NCBI GenBank assembly: GCA_018052735.1
Contig: JAGPMT010000002.1
Location: forward strand, 1-64,000
Length of the DNA: 64,000 nucleotides
Direction of reading: 5' to 3'
DNA from: Phycisphaerae bacterium
GTDB taxonomy: Bacteria; Planctomycetota; Phycisphaerae; Sedimentisphaerales; Anaerohalosphaeraceae
Part shown: positions 3,001 to 32,873 of the stretch, piece after piece
Layout of the letters: every line of letters starts with the position of its first letter
Position numbering within the stretch: position 1 is the stretch's first letter
Position numbers and translations under genes: made by a program
The notes under the pieces: model-generated
What the model was told of the DNA's origin: nothing
What the model saw: only the letters and a program-made list of their open reading frames with translations
Databases searched by the model: none

Positions 3001-4937
3001 TCCTGCCGCAGCTGGATTCTCCAGCCGGCGCCGCCGGAGCCGGCGGGCATCTTGTCCAGCACGGTCATATCCTGCTGCTGCTGCGGCTTCATCCAGAAGG
3101 CAATCGTCCATTGGCTTTCTGTTCCGACGGCCGCCGGACAGACCACATAGTCATCCACGCCATCGAACTGAAGCGCCTGCTGCAAGTCGAAGAAGCTGTC
3201 GGCGGCGGTATCGGCAGTCCAGCACGAAGGAGCGGAAAAATTATTGCCGGAGGCAGCATAACCGCCGGTTGATGCATCGCTGAAGCTGCCGTTGAAGGCA
3301 TAATAGGGAACCGGCGCCGGAGCCGTGCCGATAACGAATGTCATGGTGCTGGCGGCCGCACTGATTTGGGTTATATCCATTCCGGACGGCTGGCCTGCTT
3401 TGGCTCCAAATTTCCAGTTGGAGCTGGGCGTTGTGCCGGCGGTAAACTGGTTGAGCAGCCCCCCTTCCTTGAAGCAGACATTGCTGGTTTTGTTGGTATC
3501 GGTGTTGTTGGCGTGGACCAGCTCGATATGCCGGTCTGTATTGGGATAATTGGAATTGTCGCCCTGCGTGTTGATCCGCCAGAATGTCATCCCCTGATCG
3601 GGAATGGAAGGACAATACAGAAGACTGGTTACATAGGGACGGATGAAGTAAAACTCTGTCGGCTGATCGGGGTCGTAGTAGGCATAGGCAAAATAGGGGT
3701 CATTGGAGGCCATCGTTTTGAGGCCGGGAAAGCCGCGGATATTCTCGGCATCCAGCCAGCCGTTCTCATACAGAAAATACGGATTGGGCAGGTCGGTGTA
3801 TCCGCCGCCCATAATATCCCACGTGCCGGGTTCGCCGCCGACATAGCTGTATGTATCGGGCCATTCGGCGGCCATATGGCCGTGTTCGTGAATCAGCGTT
3901 CCGGGGTCCAGATTGTTGGCGCTGTCGGTGCAGTAGCGGCCGGTGCGGACGCCGTCGGCACTGAAGCCGCTCCAGCTGCCGGCATGGTACCACATCCCTT
4001 CGGCCCACGCCTTCGGATTGCCGGTGTACATCAGACTCAACGCACGGATCTCGCCGGAACTGAACGTCGTCAATTGGCTGAAATCAAAGCCGGCAGCTTC
4101 CATCTGGTTGAGGGCAATACTCAGCAGCTGCCGGGCACCTTCCGTATAAGGGAGATTATCGTAATAGGCAAAGGTCTGGGGCGCCCGAAAGATGCCGTAG
4201 ACCACATGGTTCATAATAAAAACGCCCCGTGACACATCTTCATAATAGGTGCGCAAAGAAGCCGCTGTGCCGTTGCTTTTATAGGCATTGGCCTTATTGA
4301 CCTTGTCCCGATACTGTTCGAGCGTATAGCCGGCCGGAGCATCGGAAAAATCGAAAATTACCACCAGACCCTTGATGGTGCCGGTGAAATTGCTGATGCT
4401 TTTCGTCGGTGGCAGAACACCGCCGGCAGCGGCCGCCTGCGTATCGTCTGCGGGCTGGGCAATGCTGTCAGCGGCTGCCGTGCTGTCGGCCGGATATGCC
4501 TGACCGTTGATGAGTTGAAAGTCGTCGCCGAAAAGCAGTTTCTGCTTCTGGCGGATTTTTTTCAGCTTGGAAGACGGCTTTATCTTTAACTTTTTTTCAA
4601 TTTTTCTGCCGCCGGCTATCTCTTTCTGCTTGGCTGCTGTCTGTTCTGAATCACTGTCCTGAATTTCAACGGGCTGACCGGTAGAAACCAATTCCTCGCC
4701 ATCATCGGATAATTGGGCATAGCAAATCCATCCTGTTTGGGGATCTCTGACGACGGTATAGCCGTCAGGTGTTTGGGCCTCCATATAAAACTCATCGCCG
4801 TTGAGAATAAGCGTCAGTTTTGTGCCGTCCGGCTGCTCAAATTCATACGGCATATCGAAATACGGGGCAGATACAACGGGAATACCCAGTAAAAACAGCC
4901 ATACAAGAGCTGCAATCCTCTGAAATCGTAGGGACAT
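1..4937 (-). CDS. Secreted M6-like metalloprotease with LamG, PA14 and dockerin-like modules (C-terminus outside window)
   Basis: About 1,645 codons are visible and the gene runs off the left edge. The start has a good ribosome site (AAAGGA). Residues 1-24 form a signal peptide ending VVSA. Residues 200-490 resemble an M6/immune-inhibitor-A type peptidase, with zinc motif HEHGH at 350-354 followed by EWPDTY. After that come LamG-like domains (about 545-745 and 757-969), a fibronectin-like stretch ending YFWRVDE, a PA14-like domain (about 1065-1225), a cadherin/Ig-like repeat (1230-1310), a dockerin-like stretch (1320-1365), and two more LamG domains, the last cut by the window. LamG and PA14 modules usually bind carbohydrate, so a secreted protease anchored on polysaccharide or cell surface is a reasonable inference. 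The substrate is unknown. An Asp/Glu/Lys-rich linker lies near residues 80-130. Confidence 0.82.
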   Translation of the reverse strand, partial: MSLRFQRIAALVWLFLLGIPVVSAPYFDMPYEFEQPDGTKLTLILNGDEFYMEAQTPDGYTVVRDPQTGWICYAQLSDDGEELVSTGQPVEIQDSDSEQTAAKQKEIAGGRKIEKKLKIKPSSKLKKIRQKQKLLFGDDFQLINGQAYPADSTAAADSIAQPADDTQAAAAGGVLPPTKSISNFTGTIKGLVVIFDFSDAPAGYTLEQYRDKVNKANAYKSNGTAASLRTYYEDVSRGVFIMNHVVYGIFRAPQTFAYYDNLPYTEGARQLLSIALNQMEAAGFDFSQLTTFSSGEIRALSLMYTGNPKAWAEGMWYHAGSWSGFSADGVRTGRYCTDSANNLDPGTLIHEHGHMAAEWPDTYSYVGGEPGTWDIMGGGYTDLPNPYFLYENGWLDAENIRGFPGLKTMASNDPYFAYAYYDPDQPTEFYFIRPYVTSLLYCPSIPDQGMTFWRINTQGDNSNYPNTDRHIELVHANNTDTNKTSNVCFKEGGLLNQFTAGTTPSSNWKFGAKAGQPSGMDITQISAAASTMTFVIGTAPAPVPYYAFNGSFSDASTGGYAASGNNFSAPSCWTADTAADSFFDLQQALQFDGVDDYVVCPAAVGTESQWTIAFWMKPQQQQDMTVLDKMPAGSGGAGWRIQLRQDGRIALLIGSGSNNTAVLTPWPVYEPGRWTHAACTFSGGTAKIFINGALRMVKNGIPQTPVTAAAAVWMGMSSQVDGGLPYKGLLDDVRFYNTALEAGPLNAIDGLNLRPDKGPLALLKLDDISGTRAEDISGHNNHGTLNNGLSFETNSTSGPVGRALSFDGVDDYIALPSGMAKRNGGFTVALWACPTAVKGWARFIDFGNGSSSDNILLARYQSTSDLTLEVYNGSVSGGHVRATNAIELNKWQFFAAAVDADGNVKIYKNGQVVKTGKTAAPRQLYRRNLFIGRSNWSADSYYQGAMDDIRLYNYALSDAEITAVYTNSRLDGPIPYSGSNQVSPETVLQFTPAANALRHDIYFGTQYSAVAAADTGSPEYVGRKQAAQYNPPLLDGWREYFWRVDERMIDGTVQTGPVWRFSTVGSIQRQVWTGLSGVNEIAGLTSASSYPASPSLVEHLDTFEIPANWADNYGTRLHGLLVPQTTGSVRFWISGDNEVELWLSTDADPAHAARIAYIYGTWSNPRSFDQYASQRSALFTLQAGQPYYIMALHKEGDGGDHLAVAWQGPDSPDRSIIDGFWLRPPRDNEWPHFEPALPAALNAPEGAAFQAVMPVRAADPDTAGLNYAKQAGPAWLHIASDGRLWGTPQNGDVGLNSFTIRAGDGRGGFDDLILSVDVPNRFTGSQGLEDLTGFAHEWLNPDSQSPANLNQAGAVTFDDWKLLAAQWSSAPGSGLAAYWAMDDSIGQIARDSQSHHHAILTHMTEHHWVGGISQNALAFDGIDDYVEAVGYKGITGSASRTCTAWIKTTVPGTNILSWGAAQTGRLWAIALSSDGTLRVQVYGDYIYGTTPLTDGQWHHIAVMLPDDGSPNLTEAVLYVDGLPETSIGGSATCPINTAASADVCIGANVPRTIFYKGVIDEVRLYDRLLSRQEIEKLALRRLQLYLPLDETAGLTAADYSAKNRIGQLFGQPAWKPGMGVRGGAVSFDGIDDYIQISGYKGILGS

Positions 4938-5261
4938 TCGCTATAAATCCTTTCTTTACCCGCCTGCAGGTATCGTAATTTTATATTTCCCCATTTTAAA
5001 TACGGACATCTGTCAAGAATTGGAAAAAATTCTCGCCTTATTGTGCAGATTATTAAAAAGTTTAATTCCCTTAAAAAGAACCTTTTTACCGGAACTTGCC
5101 TTGCTGTATTGTCAGTGATTTTAAATATCGTTCTGCAAAGAGGATATGTTAATCAGATTTCAGGTGTTTTCCGGCGTTCTTTGAGGGTTATTTTATATAA
5201 AGACATAATATCTCTTTATTCAGCAACTGTCTAAGCTGAGCTTGCCGGCCTATTGGGTGTT
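4938..5261. other. Gene-free stretch between the M6-like protease and lacI-type genes
   Basis: This AT-rich gap holds the leader of the protease gene on its left and the 3' flank of the LacI-type gene on its right. A 63-codon reading frame on the plus strand starting with GTG has no ribosome site and looks like chance. I see no RNA gene or clear terminator. Confidence 0.5.
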
Positions 5262-6341
5262 TTACAATGTTTTTGGAGGAGCCGCTGTCGTCTGGGCCTC
5301 AAAGAGCTTACAGGGCAGCATTACTTTCATCGGCGGGCCGGCAGGATGACGAATCCGTGTCAGAAGCCGCCGCAGCGCTTCGGCACCAATCCGAAGCGCT
5401 GGGACGGTGATACTGGTTAGTTTGGGGCAACCGAGCGTGTTGTCTTCGCTGTCGTCGAATCCGACGATCGATACATCTTTCGGGATGTTATAACCCCGAT
5501 CGATAAGTCCTCGGCAAAGCAAATAACCCACCCAATCACTGGCGCAGACCCACGCCCGAACCCCTTGTTGATGTATTCGACGAATAACGGATTCGATTTG
5601 TCCAGTGAGGGCAATTTCTTTATCTTCCAGATGTCCCGGCAGGACATCAATGACATTCGATAAGTCCAATTTCAGGTCAAATTGCGCCAGCGCGCTGATA
5701 AAGGCCCCAAAACGGCTGCGAGCATGGGAAACCGAGCCGCAATTGCCGAAAAAACCGATTTTACGGTGTCCCAGTGTGTACAAATGCTCGGTCAGCAGCT
5801 CCATCCCTTGGTTTTCATCTGCGCAGATGACATCCAGTTTTGTCTTGCGGTAGGCATGCGCAATGGAAACGCAGGGCATTTGGGCAGCTAAAGCAGCAGC
5901 CACATCCTCCGGCCAGTGGTTGACTAAAATCAGGCCTGACAGTTCGCCATCCCGCATCGCAGGCGGCTGATGCTCTTTATCTAAAATGAGCTGGCAGGTA
6001 TCTTCGCTGACATAATGCAGAATGAGAGAAACATTCATTTTGGCGCATTTTTCGCTCATTCCGGCAAAATAGTTGGTGTGCTGCCATTCATGTATTTTTC
6101 GAAGGATGAGGACCCCCACCATGCACGCTTTATTTTCATCCTCATCCTGCAGAATCTGCTGAATCCGGCTGCCTGTGCTGGTATAGCCAAGCTGGCTGGC
6201 CATATTGACTACCCGCTCACGGGTTTCCGTGTTGATGTCCGAATAATCCCCCCGCAACGCTTTGGAAACCGTCGCAACGGACAGGTTCAGCCGGTCAGCA
6301 ATATCTTTCTGGTTGATTCGCACTTTTGACATACTGCCCAT
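5262..6341 (-). CDS. LacI-family transcriptional regulator
   Basis: The protein has 359 residues, typical LacI length. The N-terminal helix-turn-helix (about 8-60) contains QKDIADRLNLSVATVSKAL, and a hinge and periplasmic-binding-protein-like effector domain follow (motifs ADENQGM, GFFGNCG, SIVGFDDSEDN). Such proteins repress or activate sugar-utilisation genes in response to a small ligand. The ligand cannot be read from the sequence. Neighbours are secreted polysaccharide enzymes and a hybrid histidine kinase, so control of a glycan-use locus is likely. A start three codons later (MSKVR) is equally plausible, as neither has a strong ribosome site. The upstream DNA carries repeated TTTTCGAAAA palindromes that could be its own operators. 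Confidence 0.9.
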   Translation of the reverse strand: MGSMSKVRINQKDIADRLNLSVATVSKALRGDYSDINTETRERVVNMASQLGYTSTGSRIQQILQDEDENKACMVGVLILRKIHEWQHTNYFAGMSEKCAKMNVSLILHYVSEDTCQLILDKEHQPPAMRDGELSGLILVNHWPEDVAAALAAQMPCVSIAHAYRKTKLDVICADENQGMELLTEHLYTLGHRKIGFFGNCGSVSHARSRFGAFISALAQFDLKLDLSNVIDVLPGHLEDKEIALTGQIESVIRRIHQQGVRAWVCASDWVGYLLCRGLIDRGYNIPKDVSIVGFDDSEDNTLGCPKLTSITVPALRIGAEALRRLLTRIRHPAGPPMKVMLPCKLFEAQTTAAPPKTL

Positions 6342-29338: not shown

Positions 29339-30571
29339 CTATGCATTGGTTTGCTGCTGCTTGAGCACTGCGATATGCCGGCAGCGGGGACATTCAACGC
29401 GGCTGCCTTTATACTCCGGGGGGATTTTCATTTTCAATCCGCAGTCCGGACAGGTTAGAAATGCAAATGCGCTGACTGTGCGCATCAGGTCGCCAAGCCG
29501 GCGGGCCTGCTGCCGAGCTGTCGGGCCTGCGGCCGGTTCAGCCGCACCCTGCCGAATTGCTACCGCTTCTTCTTTCAAAGCCGACATCGGTACAACAGGG
29601 GAGCGCTTGGTTATCGCCTCATAGGATTTTTCATAATCGATATATCCGGCACCGTGACTCATATTCCGCAGAATCCGAATCCTCTCTTCTATCGGCGGAT
29701 GCGTGCTGTACAGATGGACCGCCTTTCTGCCGCGGAACGGATTGGCAATATACATCGGAGCAGTTACCTTGTTGGCTGACTCCATATTAATCGGGCAGCC
29801 GGCTATTTTCTCCAACGCGCTGGCCAGCCCCTCCGGATAGCGCGTCAGCCGCACAGCCCCTGCATCGGCCAGATACTCCCGCCTCCGGGATAGGGCAAAA
29901 TACAGCAGCTGGGCGAAAATCGGGGCTAAAATCGCAAACAAAATCGCCACGACAAACATGATCAGCTGTCCGCCGCCCTGATTGGAGGAGCGCGACGAAT
30001 ACCGCCGCTGCGATCCCAGCGATCCATAGAACAGACTCCGCATAAAAATTTCGCTGATAAGCACAATGCTGCCCAGCATAACCCCAGCCAGTGTCACAAA
30101 CAAAATATCCCGATGCACAATATGGCTGATTTCATGGGCAACAACACCCTGCAGCTCATCCCGGTTTAGCCGGGCCAGCAGCCCGGCAGTTACCGCCACA
30201 GAGGCGCTTTGCGGGCTGCGGCCGGTGGCAAAGGCATTTGGGGCCGGATCGTTAATGATATAGATCTTGGGCATCTTCGGCAGGTTGGCTGCTATGGTCA
30301 TCTCTTCCACCACATTAAACAGCATAGGGTGCACATCCGCTGTTACAGGAACAGCCCGGCTGGAAGCCAGCAGAATCTGGTCGCCGCTGGATAAGCTGAT
30401 CAGCATCAGCACCAGCCAGATGCAGCAGGCTGCCGTCATTCCCATCCAGCCGGCCTGCGGATTGCCCCCGAACAAAACTCCCAGAATATACCCCAGCAGC
30501 AGCAGGACTGCTCCCATTGCTGCCAGCAGCAGAATCGAATTGCGTTTATTAATACGTATCAGTTCCCACAT
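29339..30571 (-). CDS. M48-family (HtpX-like) membrane metalloprotease with C-terminal zinc ribbon
   Basis: About 410 residues from ATG. Two N-terminal membrane helices (about 11-33, 37-58) precede the zinc site HEISH (about 142-146), with two further helices around 160-180 and 205-230 and the second Glu in EYLADAGAV. A zinc ribbon ends the protein (CPDCGLKM ... CPRCRH). HtpX proteases clear damaged membrane proteins. LemA-type genes often precede such proteases, and lemA is present on the same strand but separated by the GH16 gene. The first 15 codons are nearly identical to the start of that GH16 gene, so this gene's 5' end has been duplicated. Confidence 0.9.
   Translation of the reverse strand: MWELIRINKRNSILLLAAMGAVLLLLGYILGVLFGGNPQAGWMGMTAACCIWLVLMLISLSSGDQILLASSRAVPVTADVHPMLFNVVEEMTIAANLPKMPKIYIINDPAPNAFATGRSPQSASVAVTAGLLARLNRDELQGVVAHEISHIVHRDILFVTLAGVMLGSIVLISEIFMRSLFYGSLGSQRRYSSRSSNQGGGQLIMFVVAILFAILAPIFAQLLYFALSRRREYLADAGAVRLTRYPEGLASALEKIAGCPINMESANKVTAPMYIANPFRGRKAVHLYSTHPPIEERIRILRNMSHGAGYIDYEKSYEAITKRSPVVPMSALKEEAVAIRQGAAEPAAGPTARQQARRLGDLMRTVSAFAFLTCPDCGLKMKIPPEYKGSRVECPRCRHIAVLKQQQTNA
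30522..30571 (-). repeat. Duplicated 50-bp start segment, copy in the M48 gene
   Basis: The first 50 bp of the M48 gene match the first 50 bp of the GH16 gene at 43 positions, including an unbroken 20-base stretch. The encoded starts are MWELIRINKRNSILL here and MRELIRINRRNSILL there. Confidence 0.85.
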
Positions 30572-30592
30572 AGCAGATAACAATCAAAAAAA

Positions 30593-32194
30593 TTAATTTT
30601 GCTGTTGATAAACACGTACATAATCAATCAGAAACTTCTGGGGGAAAATACTGTCGTCAATTCCCTGCTGTCCTCCCCACGCTCCTCCTATCGCTGTATT
30701 CAGGATTAGGTAGTGTGCCCTATCGTAAGGCCAAACGTCGGGGCCGGTTCCTTCGTTTTGGAAGGTGAAATACTTATGGTTGTCCATAAAGAAATCCAGA
30801 TGATCCTCGTACCACTCCACGGCGTACAGATGGAACTGTTCCCACGGCTTGTCGGCACGGATTTTTGAGCCCTTACCTGTTTTCAAGACGTGGTTATAGG
30901 CCTTGGTATGAATATTGGCATGAATGGTTTCCGGATCGTATCCGACATTTTCCATGATGTCGATCTCGCCGCAGGCAGGCCAGCCGACTTGATGGATGGA
31001 ATCACCCAGCATCCAGATCGCCGGCCAGGTTCCGTTGCCGGTCGGCAGTTTGGCGCGGACCTCAAACCGCCCGTAAAGAAACGACTGTTTGCCGGAGGTA
31101 TGAATACTGGCTGAAGTATATTTGCCCTCCTTAAACGCTTCCTTCCGGGATTCGATTACCAGCGTTCCATTTTCCTGTCTGGCATTCTCTGGCCGCCGGC
31201 GTGTGTAATATTGGCTTTCGTTGTTGCGGATAAAGCCTTCTTCGTAGTTCCATTTTTCCTCGTCTACCAGTCCCTGTCCGTTAAACTCGTCATTCCAGAT
31301 TAGTTTCCACTGGGGATCTTCGGGCTGTTCAAATGAATCGGTTGAACAGGTCAGCGATGAACTCAGGGGGGTGCTGTTTTTAGTCTCTCCCCCGTTTTGC
31401 AGGAAGAAACCGCCTTCAATCCTACCCGCATCAATATGTATGGACGGATTGTTGTCGGCAGTAAAAACGGCTTTGCTCAAAGCTATCCACTGACCATCGA
31501 CTGTCTTAATCCAGCCGTTTCCGTAGCGAGCGCGGCGAATCTGTTGTGCACTTTGGCCGTTCCTTCGAAAATCTTCTATAAACGAGTAATATCCCTGCAG
31601 GGATTTACCGCCGGTGATCGTTTCAAATGTTGCCAGATGCTTCCATGTTTGCTGCTCGGGCAGATAGAAAAACGCTGCATAGGCGGTCCGCTGATCCTGA
31701 ACAGCTGCCTTGACCATACAGCGATATCGCTGACCGATCTTCCAGTCGTAGTCAAACATGCTTTGCCCGCCGGTGCCCTCATTGCCGAACCGTTTGATTC
31801 GGATTCCCTGGCCGGCATAAAGCACCTTGACGCGCTGATCTTCCGGTACCATGTCCGGATTATCCTGATTGCCCGGATCCCAGACAGAAAAAATGACAAC
31901 CTTCCGTTCCGGGCTGATCTCCTGAATGCCAAAATAACCATTCTTAAAGCCGCATACGCAAAAATAGCTGCCCGGTGCGGATTGTTCCACGGTCAGTTCA
32001 TTGTAATAAACCATGCCCTCCGGCGCCGGATACCAAAGGTGCACACTGCGGGCGGCACGGGGTGCCTCTTGGGCCATCCCAGAGGCAAGGCACTCGCTTA
32101 TTCCTATTCTGCCGCAGAGCCCTGATATAACATTCATAACCAGCGCCTGCAGCAGAATCGAATTGCGTCTATTGATGCGTATTAATTCCCGCAT
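30593..32194 (-). CDS. DUF3472-like / GH16 (laminarinase-type) enzyme with an M48-derived N-terminus
   Basis: A 533-residue enzyme. The first 15 residues copy the start of the neighbouring M48 protease; a weak signal-like stretch follows (MNVISGLC ... LASGMA). Residues 45-290 look like DUF3472 (HLWYPAPEG, YYNELTVEQS, GYFGIQE). Residues 295-530 are GH16: WNDEFNG, active-site EIDIME at about 408-413 (nucleophile and acid Glu), HTKAYNH, YAVEWYEDHLDFF. The layout suits a beta-1,3- or mixed-linkage glucanase. No proper ribosome site lies before the ATG. A native start may have been at the internal Met20, with the present one borrowed from the M48 gene. Confidence 0.88.
   Translation of the reverse strand: MRELIRINRRNSILLQALVMNVISGLCGRIGISECLASGMAQEAPRAARSVHLWYPAPEGMVYYNELTVEQSAPGSYFCVCGFKNGYFGIQEISPERKVVIFSVWDPGNQDNPDMVPEDQRVKVLYAGQGIRIKRFGNEGTGGQSMFDYDWKIGQRYRCMVKAAVQDQRTAYAAFFYLPEQQTWKHLATFETITGGKSLQGYYSFIEDFRRNGQSAQQIRRARYGNGWIKTVDGQWIALSKAVFTADNNPSIHIDAGRIEGGFFLQNGGETKNSTPLSSSLTCSTDSFEQPEDPQWKLIWNDEFNGQGLVDEEKWNYEEGFIRNNESQYYTRRRPENARQENGTLVIESRKEAFKEGKYTSASIHTSGKQSFLYGRFEVRAKLPTGNGTWPAIWMLGDSIHQVGWPACGEIDIMENVGYDPETIHANIHTKAYNHVLKTGKGSKIRADKPWEQFHLYAVEWYEDHLDFFMDNHKYFTFQNEGTGPDVWPYDRAHYLILNTAIGGAWGGQQGIDDSIFPQKFLIDYVRVYQQQN
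32145..32194 (-). repeat. Duplicated 50-bp start segment, copy in the GH16 gene
   Basis: Partner of the M48 copy (86 percent identity over 50 bp). It ends in the reading frame of the GH16 gene, so the first codons of the protease are fused to the glucanase. Confidence 0.85.
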
Positions 32195-32297
32195 TTTTAA
32201 TTGCGCATTCCTGATGCTGAAAGATATTCTGCATTTTCAGTTCCTGTTTTAACAATCCCTGCCACTACTGTGCTGTTCTCTTCAGACTCTCCAATCA

Positions 32298-32873
32298 TCA
32301 GCTAAAACTGACCTTCGGGACACTGCGTTCGGCTTCATTTTCAATTTCAAAGTAATCCCGCTTGGTGAAATTGAACATGCCGGCGATGATATTCGAGGGG
32401 AACATCTGAATCTTGTTGTTGTAGAACAGCACCTGATCATTGTATCCCTGACGGGCAAAGGCAATCTTGTTTTCGGTGCTGGTCAGCGTTTCCTGCAGCG
32501 ACAGAAAGTTCTGATTGGCCTTCAGATCCGGATAATTTTCCACTACCAGCATAAATTTGCTCAGTGCCTCGGTCAGGGCGCCTTCGGCCTTGCTGGCCTC
32601 GGCTACGGATTTGGCGCCCATCGCCCGGCTGCGGGCTTCGGTAATCGCCTCGAATGTGCCGCGCTCATGCTGCATATACCCTTTGGCTGTTTCGACCAGA
32701 TTGGGTATCAGGTCATGACGGCGCTTCAGCTGCACATCGATCTGCGACCACGCATTATCCACCTGATTGCGCAGCCGCACCAGACTGTTGTAAACGCCGA
32801 TGACAAACAGCACCAGCAGCACCACTACTCCCAAAATCACCAGCATCCCGATCAATCCCGCACTCAATATCAT
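32298..32873 (-). CDS. lemA: LemA family protein
   Basis: 191 residues with one N-terminal membrane helix (5-27) then the LemA helical body: [66 protein letters not shown]. The ribosome site AAAGGAG is ideal. LemA proteins are membrane-anchored and often paired with M48 or similar membrane proteases. The pair is interrupted here by the GH16 gene. Exact function is unresolved. Confidence 0.95.

Follow-up and report, generated by a model that had tools for sequence, protein, structure and literature searches.

The lemA-GH16-M48 locus

The window analysed here, a stretch of 64,000 nucleotides from contig JAGPMT010000002.1 of a Phycisphaerae bacterium of the order Sedimentisphaerales, carries on its minus strand three genes in the order lemA, GH16 and M48. 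The upstream gene belongs to the LemA family (32298..32873; Pfam LemA, 1.2e-64) and is the first member of a conserved lemA-M48 pair. The downstream gene encodes an M48 metallopeptidase and is intact (29339..30571; Pfam Peptidase_M48, 5.2e-33); the list of open reading frames starts it at a TTG at 30583, and homology places its start at the ATG at 30571. The first-pass annotation had put a GH16 gene between these two, and the coordinates confirm this: a gene of 533 codons occupies 30593..32194, on the same minus strand as M48. Between lemA and this gene, a 33-codon open reading frame (32197..32298, minus strand) can be read from the sequence. Its ATG overlaps the lemA stop codon (TGATG), and its own stop lies 2 nt before the GH16 ATG. 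No terminator-like sites were found on the minus strand from lemA to M48. The lemA-GH16-M48 arrangement is carried by one genome only.

The middle gene had been called a GH16 glucanase. The GH16 domain is indeed present, but the protein has two domains, and DUF3472 (residues 42-287; Pfam, 1.2e-87) precedes GH16 (residues 326-511; Pfam Glyco_hydro_16, 2.1e-27). The GH16 profile scores 96.2 bits against a curated cut-off of 22, the catalytic ExDxxE motif (EIDIxE in laminarinases) appears in the translation as CGEIDIMENVG, and the closest solved structure is that of a laminarinase, 3iln (1.1e-77). Judged by its sequence, the gene encodes an intact laminarinase-like GH16 enzyme, a putative beta-1,3-glucanase.

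The base composition of the glucanase gene fits its surroundings, with a GC3 of 0.571 compared with 0.548-0.691 for the open reading frames of the window. Its best orthologues are found in another genus of the family (genus g16; for example G034:C70), to which GH16 is 76% identical and M48 64%. This excess of GH16 identity over M48 is not seen in most other genome pairs, which hints at a transfer of the GH16 gene. Apart from the locus studied here, neither lemA nor M48 was found near a GH16 homologue in the 113 loci fetched. When the former site of the gene was sought in its own genome with one gene neighbouring GH16 in G034, the search gave only weak matches covering part of the query.

Origin of the shared start

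Over their initial 50 bp, the GH16 and M48 genes are identical at 43 positions, with ATG aligned on ATG and the reading frame kept, as the first reading of the sequence had noticed. For comparison, no other pair of 50-mers from these genes agrees at more than 30 positions, and the best match elsewhere in the window reaches 26. The similarity begins exactly at the ATG, with none upstream of either start codon. It contains an exact core of 20 bp common to both starts, and an 18-bp string from this core has only these two exact sites in the 2.88-Mb genome.

The repeat spans 46 bp. One copy forms codons 1-15 of the glucanase (32149..32194, minus strand; MRELIRINRRNSILL), and the other is the resident start of the M48 gene (30526..30571, minus strand; MWELIRINKRNSILL), which encodes the M48 N-terminus conserved in relatives. 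Between them lies an inserted segment of 1577 bp (30572..32148, minus strand). The two copies are identical at 40/46 positions; the 6 differences out of 46 alter two of the 15 encoded residues, with GH16 carrying W2R and K9R relative to M48. Between species of the genus, the same 46 bp are identical at 34-42 of 46 positions. The copies thus differ about as much as species within the genus do, so the duplication is not recent. Among the 30 relatives whose M48 loci were examined, none has a second copy of the M48 start near M48.

The direction of the copying can be read from homologues of both genes. M48 homologues are present in 88 of 98 genomes, and most of the strong ones align from residue 1. 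Since the M48 proteins of relatives begin with MW[EQ][LQ]I..NKRNS, the shared start belongs to M48. Residues 1-14 of the glucanase, by comparison, are matched by no homologue in 161 genomes of the order. The first matched residue of the GH16 homologues is at least 15 and mostly 23-41, and ordinary signal peptides of their own stand there instead, in line with the expectation of the first-pass annotation that GH16 homologues would lack the first 15 residues. A single local tblastn match from residue 1, at L090, proved to be to an unrelated signal peptide. The glucanase start is a captured one in the sense that it is homologous to that of the neighbouring gene at the DNA level and absent from the orthologues. 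The GH16-side copy matches the M48 start of its own genome at 40/46 positions and those of 14 relatives at 35/46 at most; being closest to the genome's own M48, the duplication most likely arose in this lineage.

The lemA-M48 gap in relatives

The first-pass annotation had regarded lemA and M48 as usual neighbours. The pairing holds, in that 66 relatives carry both genes on one strand with lemA upstream, but other genes often occupy the gap. The gap measures 250 bp or less in 48 of these 66, and GH16 is found in it in none (0/66). Together with the N-termini of the homologues, this gene order supports the earlier proposal that a recombination placed the glucanase within the lemA-M48 pair and duplicated the M48 start. 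The occupants identified by Pfam among the 66 are a 23S_rRNA_IVP (four-helix-bundle) gene in 8 relatives and a PhoD-like gene in 2; in one more genome, G015, the stretch from the lemA tail to M48 holds two PhoD-like genes.

The four-helix-bundle genes lie in the gap at L062:3246-3599, L064 (rev) 2296-2655, L076 (rev) 3442-3786, L093:4791-5153, L094 (rev) 4455-4817 and L097:4100-4444, and also in L254 and L016, and the 8 relatives concerned belong to several genera and two families. Several of these genes have AT-rich repeats such as AGTTTTGAGTT on one side and the reverse complement on the other. The family occurs in 37 of 49 relatives, with up to 11 copies per genome, and its presence in the lemA-M48 gap looks like repeated insertion at one place. 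A limited literature search for four-helix-bundle genes as mobile units found nothing.

Probable remnants of 23S_rRNA_IVP genes are present in the gap of G021, of G029 and of the genome studied here. In the last, the candidate remnant is the 33-codon open reading frame, which aligns to the C-terminal part of the four-helix-bundle profile; 1 of 2000 shuffles scored higher, a support of about 1 in 1000. At the DNA level, the 104-bp gap between lemA and GH16 was compared with the four-helix-bundle genes of relatives, and the best of eight comparisons was reached by 3 of 300 shuffles, which is not significant alone. The genus-mates G001 and G008 have a four-helix-bundle gene upstream of M48. Considering that the 33-codon frame resembles this family and lies directly before the glucanase, the GH16-side copy probably stands at the former site of the M48 start.

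Other genes are also found at this place. PhoD-like phosphatase genes occupy the lemA-M48 gap or immediately precede M48 at L065:6318-8903, L072:5042-7390, L070 (rev) 3068-5713 and L078:185-5523, in relatives of two families; two PhoD-like genes were assigned by Pfam and the others by similarity. The gap of G046 and G050 (L241, L242) holds an open reading frame of about 101 codons, beginning with MKSLNIPAVPVHPGRILQEEFLTPLGITQT in G046, which by eye resembles a HigA-type antitoxin. In the genus-mate G009 (L077 (rev) 4846-5322), the M48 start is overlapped, in a different frame, by a 158-codon open reading frame with a zinc-binding-like HELVH motif and no Pfam match.

Probable export signal and history of the glucanase gene

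Read from M1, the glucanase has a front of net charge +3 ahead of 18 uncharged residues (NSILLQALVMNVISGLCG), and this leader, which spans the join, has the predicted anatomy of a normal export signal. Read from M20, the front is uncharged, only 9 uncharged residues follow, and R and E stand inside the core; the uncharged stretch of the eight orthologues examined measures 19-25 residues. Codons 20-41 (32072..32137, minus strand; MNVISGLCGRIGISECLASGMA) are likely the original GH16 start with a degraded signal peptide. The leader from codon 20 to GMA is 22 residues long, the same as in the G034 orthologue, so codon 20 is probably the old start; codons 20-41 themselves match the orthologues' native signal peptide only weakly (31/66 nt). 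Because export-signal anatomy is normal from codon 1 and lost from codon 20, the glucanase probably owes both its start and its signal to the M48 piece, and the same anatomy suggests that the fused start is probably the one used for translation. Neither candidate start, at codon 1 or codon 20, has a clear Shine-Dalgarno sequence. The position of ATG1 just past the stop of the small open reading frame, whose own ATG overlaps the lemA stop, would allow coupled translation.

We consider it likely that a DUF3472-GH16 gene was joined into the M48 start, leaving the 46-bp repeat on both sides, and that the upstream copy now acts as start and signal of the glucanase. The ancestor would have had lemA followed by M48, and a complete DUF3472-GH16 gene of about 1.6 kb would have arrived, either from another site of the same genome or by transfer from a related planctomycete. 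Its join into the M48 start would have left 46 bp of M48, from the ATG to codon 15, flanking the gene on each side. The downstream copy would still have started M48, and the upstream copy, already in place behind lemA, would have become codons 1-15 of the glucanase, giving it a start codon, a positive front and the first part of a hydrophobic core. The signal peptide of the enzyme itself could then have decayed, gaining charged residues, and the glucanase would be exported and would share its expression with lemA and M48. As for the mechanism of the join, the order of repeat, insert and repeat could have come from a template switch, from a staggered break repaired by fill-in around a captured fragment, or from one crossover with a circular molecule on which the gene was already fused.

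Several other explanations must be weighed against this one. The M48 copy might be a mere passenger, with translation beginning at the gene's own ATG at codon 20 and the 15 codons open by chance. That ATG is in frame and gives the same leader length as in the G034 orthologue; however, the resulting leader, lacking a positive front and with its core broken by R and E, is unlike those of all eight orthologues. Moreover, all 19 codons upstream of it are open and the junction is in frame, and no ribosome-binding site precedes codon 20, whereas only 2 nt separate the codon-1 ATG from the preceding stop of the small frame. We regard a passenger as unlikely. A rather unlikely course is that the fusion took place in a different genome and that the fused gene reached this one by homologous recombination, through a single crossover of circular DNA. 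Such an event leaves the repeat-insert-repeat order observed, and the identities of 76% for GH16 and 64% for M48 to genus g16, an excess absent from most other genome pairs, suggest transfer of GH16. Yet homologous recombination would have had only a short 46 bp to work with, no free fused gene turned up in 161 genomes of the order, and the GH16-side copy is closer to its own M48 than to the M48 starts of the relatives compared.

An error of assembly, in which the glucanase was misjoined between lemA and M48, is very improbable in our judgement. The assembly is a draft of 70 contigs and the copies have an exact run of 20 bp in common, but an artefact would require two independent misjoins 1.6 kb apart, and the base composition of the glucanase gene fits the window. 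In addition, the copies differ at 6/46 positions, so neither derives from the other at the level of the reads. The least credible explanation, to which we give next to no weight, is that the two starts resemble each other by chance or convergence. In both, charged residues at the front give way to hydrophobic ones, as in export signals and membrane anchors, but the match is one of DNA: 43/50 including synonymous positions, with an exact run of 20 bp, where the background reaches 30 at most. A chance match of the starts, which the first-pass annotation had named as a way for its proposal to fail, is refuted by this agreement at the DNA level.

Returning to the join into the M48 start, the gain of a start, of expression and of an export signal by a moved gene usually becomes visible only after its traces have vanished. 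At this locus the donor gene, the two copies of the piece it gave and probably the former signal peptide as well can be read side by side, so that the steps are testable with few constructs. In Sedimentisphaerales, the gap between lemA and M48 also stands out as a site into which other genes have been taken up repeatedly. To the broader view that the glucanase signal peptide is an accidental chimera, in which the charged front and half the hydrophobic core of the protease anchor took the place of the enzyme's decaying signal so that export relies on the M48 piece, and that the lemA-M48 gap is a recurrent capture site, we give an even chance.

DUF3472-GH16 proteins of Sedimentisphaerales (G034:C70) have the same two domains and catalytic motif and are likewise intact enzymes, but these orthologues have their own start and signal peptide, and their surroundings, as fetched, contain neither lemA nor M48. 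In the lemA-M48 pair of Sedimentisphaerales, lemA lies upstream of M48 on the same strand, as it does here, whereas here a third gene stands between the two and begins with the M48 start. The locus also resembles a transposon insertion with target-site duplication, in that a direct repeat flanks the inserted DNA. The target duplications of usual transposons are far shorter than 46 bp, typically 2-14 bp. DUF3472-GH16 is the only plausible gene of the 1577-bp insert, which has no room for a transposase gene. Both the length of the repeat, 46 bp rather than a short target duplication, and an insert taken up by the glucanase gene speak against a simple transposon. A limited literature search found no described case of the exact arrangement. 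A further likeness is to chimeric genes that lie beside a partial duplication of the 5' end of a neighbour, where the moved gene likewise gains the start of the resident and the resident keeps a copy. The locus is an instructive but small case of this known kind of event, a moved gene acquiring a working front end; it differs from the class in that a piece of no more than 15 codons was donated, which flanks the insert on either side and seems to give half of an export signal, taken from the anchor of a membrane protease.
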